Source: Gordionus sp. m RMFG-2023 | Lineage: Eukaryota > Nematomorpha > Gordioida > Chordodea > Parachordodidae | Assembly: GCF_954871325.1 (NCBI RefSeq) | Contig: NC_088775.1 | Coordinates: 90,588,805-90,652,804, forward strand | Direction of reading: 5' to 3' | Length of the DNA: 64,000 bases | Shown: positions 1-64,000 of the stretch, one piece after another | Numbering within the stretch: the first letter of the stretch is position 1 | Layout: every line of letters begins with the position of its first letter | Position numbers and translations under genes: made by a program | The notes under the pieces: generated by a model | Seen by the model: the letters and a program-made list of their open reading frames with translations, nothing else | Databases searched by the model: none | What the model was told of the DNA's origin: nothing

Positions 1-157
1 TTTTAAAATAAGATATAGAAAATAATTTGTCATTTGAAATAATCGATATTTGGGGAAAAAATATTTAAATAAATTATTAAAGCAATAAATTATTGGTATC
101 TTTCATGTTATTTCTGTTAGAGTTTTTTTTTTTTGAAAATATTATAATAATAATTAC

Positions 158-312
158 CAGAGTTTATCTAGATCCAGTATCTAGATATAAAAATGTGGTA
201 TCTGTATATGAATCTAGCTAGATTTTTTATTAAAATATAGGTATCTAGATATTATTTTAGACCATGTATTTGTATCTAGATTCATTTAAAAAGTATCTCT
301 TATAAAGCTCTG
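158..312. mobile_element. hAT-like MITE, CAGAGTT termini
   Basis: Termini CAGAGTTT and AAAGCTCTG are flanked by a perfect 8-bp duplication ATAATTAC (150-157 and 313-320). The interior is rich in TCTAGAT motifs. A relative lies at 17033-17149. The matching place in arm 2 (about 41890-41905) is an empty site. An 8-bp duplication points to hAT; no coding capacity is present. Confidence 0.8.
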
Positions 313-61000: not shown

Positions 61001-64000
61001 TTTCTTTCTTTCTTTCTTTCTTTCTTTCTTTCTTTCTTTCTTTCTTTCTTTCTTTCCTTCCTTCCTTCCTTCCTTCCTTCCTTCCTTCCTTCCTTCCTTC
61101 CTTCCTTCCTTCCTTCCTTCCTTCCTTCCTTCCTTCCTTCCTTCCTTCCTTCCTTCCTTCCTTCCTTCCTTCCTTCCTTCCTTCCTTCCTTCCTTCCTTC
61201 CTTCCTTCCTTCCTTCCTTCCTTCCTTCCTTCCTTCCTTCCTTCCTTCCTTCCTTCCTTCCTTCCTTCCTTCCTTCCTTCCTTCTTTCCTTCATTCTTTC
61301 TTTCTTTGATCAATCACAAATCGCTCATTGATTTGAGTCAAAAAATATATCCAAAAGTGCAATAACTACAATAATCCTCGATTGAGCCCAAGTTAATATA
61401 AGAACGATTGTTTGTCTAGGTGCAAGTCGAGGCCTCGCGAATCTCTAAATCATGTATTCTCGCTTTTCGCTCAACATTCGCATAAATCTCGTTAAATGAT
61501 TGGTCGATATTTTGTCTTAGTTTTTCTTACTCGTGATATAATAATATTCGTGTAAGTGAATCCTTATCATTTCTTTTTATGAAAAATATTGAATAAACTT
61601 GTTGTGTAATTAAATAATTTTGTAAATACATTATAATGTATAAGAAAAATTAGAATGTCACACTGACTCTAATGATGTATTAGCCTTTCAGGTGAAATAT
61701 CTGGTTATGGCCATTCTGCTTTTTCACGAAGAGCAATCAGAATAGGTTGTTTTAGATCGAAAAAAGGCTTTAATAGTTTGATATAGAAGAGAATCCCTCA
61801 AGTTGGGAATGCTTTTTGCAGTTTTTCTCATCTTGTACAACTTAAAGATATTTATACGCAGGAAATTCGGTCTAATGATTACTAACATCCTGAAGACCTT
61901 TAACTATCTTTTTTAGATTCTTCATTTTGTTTCGATATTTATATTAGCAATCATTGTGCATCAGAGTGTGAAGATGAATAAATAACTTGTTATGATTTGC
62001 GGTATTAGGTTTGGGTTTTATAATTTTTTATATTAAATTATAATAATTTTTATGTTTTTGGTAGATAAAAAAAATATATTAAGATACACAAGGAAAAAAA
62101 ATATAAAAATTAATAATTTTTTACTACAATTTAAATAAAATATGACCCATTTGAATTAAATACTTTGCATTTCACAATTCCTTAGATATTTTATATTTTT
62201 CGAAAAAATTTCTTTACAGTGATTACTACCCCCCCCCCTCCCCTCCGATGGCTACACGAATGTGCTTCCTCATTGTGAAGATAATTTATTTTTTTTTAAA
62301 TATTTAACATTTGTAAATTATATGGTGTTTATTATAACAATAAAAATAAAAAATAAAATTGTGCTTTGTGTTAAAATTTTATAACAGCCATCTTACCCCA
62401 AAGGGTTTTTCCATTTTACCCCAATAGTCCCATCTTACCCCAATGGCTTTGCCATCTTACCCCAAATTCTTTGGTAAATAGTTAAAAACAGGGACATTTA
62501 TTTACACCTCAGTTCTAATACTATTAAAGGTAGTAGTAATATTATTTTGGCTGAAATCTAAATTGGGCCTTTTGTAAAAATTGACCCAAAACACTAATAG
62601 GTTTGTATACATAGATTTTTTTTTTGTTATTAAGTAGTCTAATGATGAAGCTATCCAATGATATAATTAGTTTCATCCTCTAAAATGAAATTTAAATTTT
62701 ATGCCGAGTGAGCGATGGTTCTTTGGCCAATATGTTCATAATTTATTTATTTAGTTAAATCCAACCAATTCCCTTGCCTTCCATAATTTGGACGGGAAAA
62801 CGCTGAAGGTGTGCCTGCTAAATCGCAAAGGCGATACGACAAATCATTGTTACGACCTGTCAGGATATCGATTCGCTCTTATGCCCGAAGCCGTGACTCG
62901 GGTATATTTATTTTACAATTTTTTAAAAAAAATAAAATAAATAGTAATCCGACAAAATGTGTATAAAAATCATCTGGTCTGGTCCAAAGTCTTTAAAACG
63001 TGGTACGTAGCACTGGTGAATGAAGATTAAATTAATTAAGATTTTTAAAAAAGGAGAGAGTTTTAATTCCGAAAGAATGTTATTGGCGGCAAATCGGACC
63101 AATACATGTAAATTACTTAATTGTGTGCCTTTCCTAAATGTTATGATGTAATGACGTCTGGTCTTTTTTTTAACCTGCTATATTGAGATCCTAGGGATTC
63201 TTGGCATATATATAAAACCATTTTTGGTAATCTTTCCTATTAAGATATTAATTTTTCTCATGTCGAATGCCACATCCATTATTGAATTTGAAATAGAGAA
63301 GATGGTACCCTAAGCGTAGTCCAATAGCTGTTTATCTTTCTTGGCAGAGTGATGTTTCGGATTCTTGAGAGGAATAACTAGAAGAGAGAAGCAAATATCA
63401 TTAATGAGGAATAATTACTAATATGATCTGATCTAAAGTGTGTAAATAATTTTAAAGAACTAGCTTATTATTTATGCATCATATAATTTAAAATCAAATA
63501 TTTATATTAATATATATATATATCGTATTTGGATATGTAACCCATTGGAATTAGTCTGAGGGAAAAATTTTAATTTGAAAAAAATCTGATTATTGCCATG
63601 TGCAACATGTATAGAGAATATACAGTGTAAATTTCAAGCAATTAAGTCTAGAATCTTTTAAAGTATTTTTAATTTTTTATATCAGCTTTCATATTGATTT
63701 TTCTTATAGATTAAAAAAGATAAAGGTTTATGGTGGTAATCTGAAATTTAATGGGTAGGCATTCTACTCATGCTGGAATGTAAAGAGATTCTAAATTTCC
63801 TCGTGGATTCCTTTATCCCCAAAACGAGATATCATAATTTTATCGTCATAAATTTATAACCAGATGGATATCATGAAAGTGGGTGAAAAGCTCTATGTCA
63901 AGGAATATTACACTGGATTCTACGTACTCAAATTAGCCAAGGGAATAACTAAGCTGGACAACTCGTCTGCTGAAGATTCTCAAAGCCAACTCAGCATAAG
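58089..64000 (+). CDS. Type-D copy D3, 5' part (continues past window; may be broken)
   Basis: Exon 1 58089-58155 (MNTYVLSLMTFLSVLSMSTT), microexon 58930-58942, and a candidate exon 3 at 59038-59063 that is two nucleotides shorter than in D1 and would break the frame. The exon 4 region (from 59295) is diverged. Exon 5, 62755-62901, encodes 49 residues with the cysteine pair VCLLNRKGDTTNHCYD. Exon 6 starts at 63864 (MDIMKVGEKLYVKEYYTGFY) and is open to the window end. About 3 kb of repeats (59300-62370) sits between exons 4 and 5. Well-kept exons 5 and 6 argue for recent function, the 5' changes against; unresolved. Confidence 0.6.
59455..59626. mobile_element. hAT-like MITE, TAGTGTTGTT family
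   Basis: Starts TAATATTGTTAAACGATTC and ends GCCGTTTAACAACACTA, with a perfect 8-bp duplication GGTGTGGG (59447-59454 and 59627-59634). Confidence 0.87.
59640..62370. other. Expanded repeat-filled intron of D3
   Basis: AT-rich sequence with G-run/AGCCAGGA fragments at 60245-60300 and 62225-62265, and the giant pyrimidine tract. 61660-61990 has more coding-like composition (plus strand SGYGHSAFSRRAIRIGCFRS) but is broken and unassigned. None of this is present in D1. Confidence 0.5.
60949..61308. repeat. 360-bp TTTC/TTCC polypyrimidine tract
   Basis: About 105 bp (TTTC)n followed by about 230 bp (CTTC)n. The longest pure pyrimidine run in the window. Its minus-strand reading frames are artefacts. 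Confidence 0.97.
62388..62466. repeat. CATCTTACCCCAA(T/A)GG repeats in D3 intron
   Basis: Four imperfect copies of a roughly 20-bp unit containing TTACCCCAA. D1 has about two copies at 24479-24525. Confidence 0.8.

Follow-up and report, generated by a model that had tools for sequence, protein, structure and literature searches.

Modular extracellular proteins assembled from symmetric class 1-1 exon modules are the subject of the exon-shuffling concept. Clustered families of orphan secreted proteins are frequent in parasites; the bicycle proteins of aphids are lineage-specific effectors of these insects and their kin. Hairworms are parasites known for changing host behaviour. The locus described here comes from the hairworm Gordionus sp. 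m RMFG-2023 (Nematomorpha, Gordioida), whose name suggests G. montsenyensis as the species. It lies on C1, a contig of chromosome scale, in a stretch of 64,000 nt (C1:90588805-90652804, “the window” below), and carries intact and decayed copies of two types of multi-exon gene, A and D, whose products are compared below with these systems.

Gene copies and their arrangement

A-type exons were first found through open-frame comparison between copies, and exon profiles were then run over the window together with 62 kb of flanks (126 kb). Coordinates are window positions, with negative values upstream of the window start and values above 64000 beyond its end. The 126 kb hold seven A-type copies by exon profiles: six intact genes (Y, X, A, B, E, and F, of which Y, E, and F are wholly in the flanks) and the broken copy C. 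The original prediction had counted seven family copies or fragments within the 64 kb. These copies are real, but what was taken there for a fragment X is the last part of a complete gene, which has nine exons and starts at -7589; C retains only module 1, and D2 only its 5′ part.

-24316 to -15193 (+): gene Y, intact, nine exons, in the 5′ flank
-7589 to 2162 (+): gene X, intact, nine exons, with only its 3′ end inside the window (exon 8, 1106-1225; exon 9, 1962-2162)
1-8647: arm 1 of an inverted duplication, bearing X; the whole arm begins at about -8.3 kb
9149-18364 (-): gene A, intact, nine exons, signal-peptide-like exon and two modules, 396 aa
18292-18364, 16285-16375, 15352-15538, 14528-14641, 14192-14342 (-): exons 1-5 of A
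13538-13625, 12241-12409, 11059-11175, 9149-9346 (-): exons 6-9 of A
17169-17238 (-): spare signal-peptide exon, a duplicate within the first intron of A
22276-28553 (+): gene D1, intact, ten exons, 344 aa, reading open without a stop
22276-22339, 23688-23700, 23830-23857, 24396-24422, 24850-24996 (+): exons 1-5 of D1
26272-26455, 26785-26869, 26930-27110, 27231-27329, 28350-28553 (+): exons 6-10 of D1
23688-23700 (+): conserved 13-nt microexon of D1
32022-34080 (+): D2, decayed 5′ part (beginning of the signal-peptide exon, the microexon, and two further small exons)
34368-48974: arm 2 of the inverted duplication, bearing B
39730-48314 (-): gene B, intact, nine exons, 393 aa
48242-48314, 47616-47706, 46239-46425, 45078-45191, 44773-44923 (-): exons 1-5 of B
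43624-43711, 42206-42371, 40899-41018, 39730-39918 (-): exons 6-9 of B
54897-57558 (-): copy C, five exons in all (the signal-peptide exon and those of module 1), with the frame broken in exon 2
58089-64000 (+): D3, continuing past the window, with a last-exon homologue at about 66436-66621
81049 to 70427 (-): gene E, intact, nine exons, in the 3′ flank
97532 to 88736 (-): gene F, intact, nine exons, in the 3′ flank

The stop codons of A and B lie just past the last exon bases listed. All 48 introns of the six intact A-type genes are GT-AG, and their phases (1,2,0,0,1,2,0,0) are common to all six. Exons 1, 2, 3, 5, and 6 are of constant length (73, 91, 187, 151, and 88 nt), exons 4, 7, and 8 show one-codon differences, and exon 9 is variable (165-231 coding bases). 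With a local stop-codon frequency of 0.074, the chance that a single random frame stays open for 390 codons is about 1e-13, a figure that is illustrative only, since the gene models were picked for open frames; the structure shared by six copies is the stronger evidence. The proposal that A, B, and D1 are codon-exact multi-exon genes is confirmed, and all three are intact. Exon profiles found no module-2 exon for copy C in the window or flanks. The spare signal-peptide exon inside A could be either an alternative first exon or a relic.

The two arms of the inverted duplication are 73-97% identical, depending on the piece, with the innermost piece highest, and gene B is the mirror-image sister of X. 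In a tree of the six A-type genes X and B form a sister pair with 100% support; the same tree gives no branching order for Y, A, E, and F. Together with tandem copies and the broken C, D2, and D3, the arms bear out an expectation of duplication, inversion, and decay within one locus.

Arm pieces over the genes are 73-90% identical and inner pieces, with gaps, 79-97%, while ungapped blocks within the inner parts (3308-8597 and 34417-38632) reach 93-99%. The inner arms may be more alike because of subsequent conversion, or because a younger event took place at that end.

Exons 5-10 of D1 match a public model (P0003), and exons 1-4 rest on conservation between D copies. The microexon with its splice sites, searched as a 20-base pattern with no mismatch, occurs five times in the genome, in D1, D2, D3, and twice beside D-type exons at C1 90.53-90.56 Mb; a reversed control pattern has no occurrence. 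No later exons of D2 were found. By our own reading, the frame of D3 is interrupted in the homologues of D1 exons 3, 8, and 10. One D1 intron contains about ten copies of a 28-bp near-palindromic tandem repeat, GCCCGATTTAAATCGATTTTTAAAAATA (23923-24208), to which a stretch of D2 (33854-33915) is related.

The window has other occupants as well. A mitochondrial nad1-like fragment (32254-32559, minus strand; Pfam NADHdh, E 8e-13) has at least 44 matches in the genome, itself included, with 40 of 114 candidates scored. Many of the better ones span query positions of about 94-99 to 274-286, at 81-87% identity, on contigs C1, C3, C4, and C5; given such similar borders, a dispersed repeat carrying a piece derived from nad1 seems a better account than separate mitochondrial DNA insertions. 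Open frames resembling remnants of reverse transcriptase and hAT transposase were noted by eye at -6124 to -5276 (+), 51501-52220 (-), and -11797 to -11504 (+); the frame at 51498-52220 has no Pfam match over the cut-off.

The original prediction described the family at this one locus, to which it is not limited. In the 287 Mb of genome searched, A-type matches are found on C1 at about 2.27, 3.05-3.12, 5.75, 73.34-73.46, and 90.56-90.69 Mb, and on the unplaced contigs C8, C265, and C266; D-type matches are found on C1 at 10.4, 82.2, 87.9, 89.1, and 90.5-90.66 Mb, and at 8.78 Mb on contig C2, with exons read at three of the D-type loci outside the window. These counts are lower bounds. Some alignment rows and an A-type query consisted of matched pieces, with residues at exon joins partly omitted or guessed, and some rows of the 73.4 Mb modules, used in alignments, in a query, and in profiles, depart from the genomic sequence by one to three residues at such joins. 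Matches at C8:16668-16985 and C1:3104735-3105052 are equal in score, identity, and extent, possibly marking an uncollapsed haplotype or a duplicate.

Modules, constraint, and the relation of A and D types

An A-type protein consists of a signal-peptide-like exon followed by two modules of about 180 residues, each encoded by four exons, so that the predicted double use of one domain behind a signal peptide is upheld. Module 1 of B aligns with module 2 of A at 25% identity over 182 columns (two-sequence BLASTP, E 3e-11), and with module 2 of B itself over 49 residues (BLASTP, E 8e-8). Modules 1 and 2 of the A-type proteins also have equal intron phases; on sequence comparison, the two are homologous. 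The first exon encodes a hydrophobic core, and no later 19-residue window exceeds a Kyte-Doolittle value of 1.61; the signal-peptide-like exon suggests that the A-type proteins are secreted.

Module 1 is bordered by phase-1 introns, one after the signal-peptide exon and one between the modules, as at the module borders of class 1-1 proteins. Module 2 of the six A-type genes runs to the stop codon, and a phase-1 border at its end is seen only in other clusters: in homologues of exon 9 at 73.4 Mb (three read) and 5.75 Mb (one), a phase-1 donor replaces the stop; the homologue at 5.75 Mb is followed by the opening two exons of a further module. The genes at 73.4 and 5.75 Mb therefore appear to have more than two modules, as read from individual exons.

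Six modules (those of A, B, and Y) share four invariant cysteines (C7, C109, C122, and C180, in A1 numbering) as well as YN, IF, and W positions. The motifs of the domain pattern given in the original prediction are thus real, but its spacings were about one residue off, and read instead C-x5-S-x2-YN-x3-IF and C-x12/13-C. One disulfide between the first and last cysteines and one closing a hairpin might be formed in each module, a scheme that is not firm because E has lost the first cysteine of its module 1, and four of the six A-type genes have an extra one in theirs. Tests of strand and helix propensity gave no informative pattern in the proteins.

Amino-acid change in the A-type genes is selected against. 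The ratio dN/dS is 0.38-0.62 in all 15 pairs of the six genes, and 0.32-0.50 in a 100-fold bootstrap over three independent pairs. It is lower in module 1 (0.28) than in module 2 (0.66), so module 1 is constrained and module 2 freer. Over exons 1-9 the pairwise means (0.66, 0.14, 0.31, 0.29, 0.27, 0.39, 0.71, 0.46, and 0.93) are all below 1, with exon 9 alone near it, which may be relaxation rather than adaptation.

Whether A and D are two homologous types, as had been proposed, is less simple. Modules of both types begin with C-x5-S-x2-YN and have a terminal cysteine; module 2 of D1 has the intron phases 1-2-0-0 of the A-type modules; and the two types are interleaved at one locus. A common origin is probable on these three grounds, intron phases, motif, and location. 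Profile comparison says less: hhalign of A against D gives E 0.0026-0.036 with a probability of 1-12%, over 37-50 columns at the module start, and the D module-1 profile gives E 0.27. In shuffle tests of D module 2 (500 shuffles each), the real score was reached 6-49 times for comparison with module 2 of the six A-type genes, and 52-379 times, at or near chance, for comparison with their module 1, so that shuffling favours a resemblance in module 2 alone. These weak scores are what would be expected if A and D were unrelated secreted families sharing only a neighbourhood, a reading that we find the less convincing of the two, since it would leave to coincidence the phases, the start, the terminal cysteine, the interleaving, and the module-2 score. 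The D comparison and the PDB search described below were repeated with two corrected module-2 rows from 73.4 Mb, with the same outcome.

Searches for relatives

A protein search with B returned two matches, both from Gordionus sp. m RMFG-2023, as did a second such search (two, both Gordionus); a possible identification as an aphid-type effector family was dropped once the search with B named this worm. Four public entries (P0001, P0002, and P0003, each an unnamed protein product, and P0004, uncharacterized protein LOC135922287) represent the same genes or paralogues, and none carries a precomputed Pfam domain or function. P0002 is copy Y. P0001 fuses exons of C to exons of B, with exon 8 absent; P0003 has D1 exons 5-10 letter for letter, with another 5′ end that lacks the signal-peptide exon. 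As P0001 and P0003 thus fuse or truncate genes, gene counts in such clusters need rechecking.

Beyond this genome, a search of 5.8 billion proteins requiring shared five-residue words found no relative outside Gordionus, and short-pattern scans of prokaryote and viral contigs found none either. No family protein matches Pfam or NCBIfam above cut-off. A single-module alignment search returned nothing at E <= 10, the worm's own proteins included; it tests for single-module relatives only, because full-length worm proteins fall outside its length limits. Literature searches found no paper on this family. Sub-cut-off Pfam matches (ArsA_HSP20, End_beta_barrel, and others), each in a single scanned protein or member, were put down to chance, and PHROG matches at about 1e-4 were rejected, being either short (20 aa) or, for 116 aa of P0003, hits on a repressor profile.

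The best matches among PDB sequences have E 0.03 and weaker. The original view that no known family fits can therefore be kept, and we regard this as a new orphan family, so far seen in this hairworm alone. Search sensitivity is limited by the profiles, which hold 5-12 sequences; with such shallow profiles, and PDB matches of this strength, the chances seem even that the modules are very diverged members of a known fold missed by sequence methods. Against this, no single fold recurs across different profiles and single-protein searches.

Possible roles and comparison with known systems

The reading we favour, with some reserve, is that of a hairworm family of secreted two-module proteins with extracellular binding in general as their function. 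Its members would be secreted, cysteine-bearing, modular extracellular proteins, and the family might grow by two routes: whole-gene duplication, in tandem and by inversion, and in-frame duplication of the four-exon module, for which the phase-1 borders are suited, with two modules in the present genes and, it appears, a larger number in some other clusters. As binding proteins they could use module 1 as a constrained scaffold, with module 2 (exons 7 and 9) as the part varying between paralogues.

What would be bound, and where, can be proposed more tentatively. As parallels for rapid birth and death, the original prediction named effector, immune, venom, and reproductive genes. Of the uses considered, we put first a role where worm and arthropod host meet, in the parasitic stage, though we hold even this one with less than even confidence. 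It is somewhat more doubtful that these genes are instead for the worm's own use, as secreted proteins with a reproductive or structural task (in the egg string, seminal fluid, cuticle, or body cavity), expanded by birth and death with no host contact. The anatomy of the proteins fits such uses equally, and moderate purifying selection with a constrained module 1 suits them, but the six sequences, inspected by eye, lack the low-complexity or repeat-rich stretches common in matrix proteins. The broken C, D2, and D3, and the transposon-like open frames in and between genes, could also suggest that the sequences derive from transposons or are relics without function; this is very improbable, given that six nine-exon copies are intact, with dN/dS below 1, and that some of them have public gene models. 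Returning to extracellular binding, its most specific form takes the four-exon unit to be an extracellular domain peculiar to hairworms, occurring in two diverged types and in arrays of at least two, and building a large family of host-facing proteins that bind their targets through a variable module 2. This reading is speculative, and rather unlikely as a whole.

The Nematomorpha are thinly sampled, and a family whose exons are mapped exactly, whose module borders are clear, and in which decay can be seen provides concrete candidates. Its architecture recalls class 1-1 modular proteins in that phase-1 introns follow the signal-peptide exon and separate the modules; it differs from them in that the module has three internal introns and matched no known domain. 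The aphid bicycle proteins are similarly secreted-looking, clustered, encoded by many small exons, and orphan in sequence. They belong, however, to another phylum, and no sequence relation to them was found.
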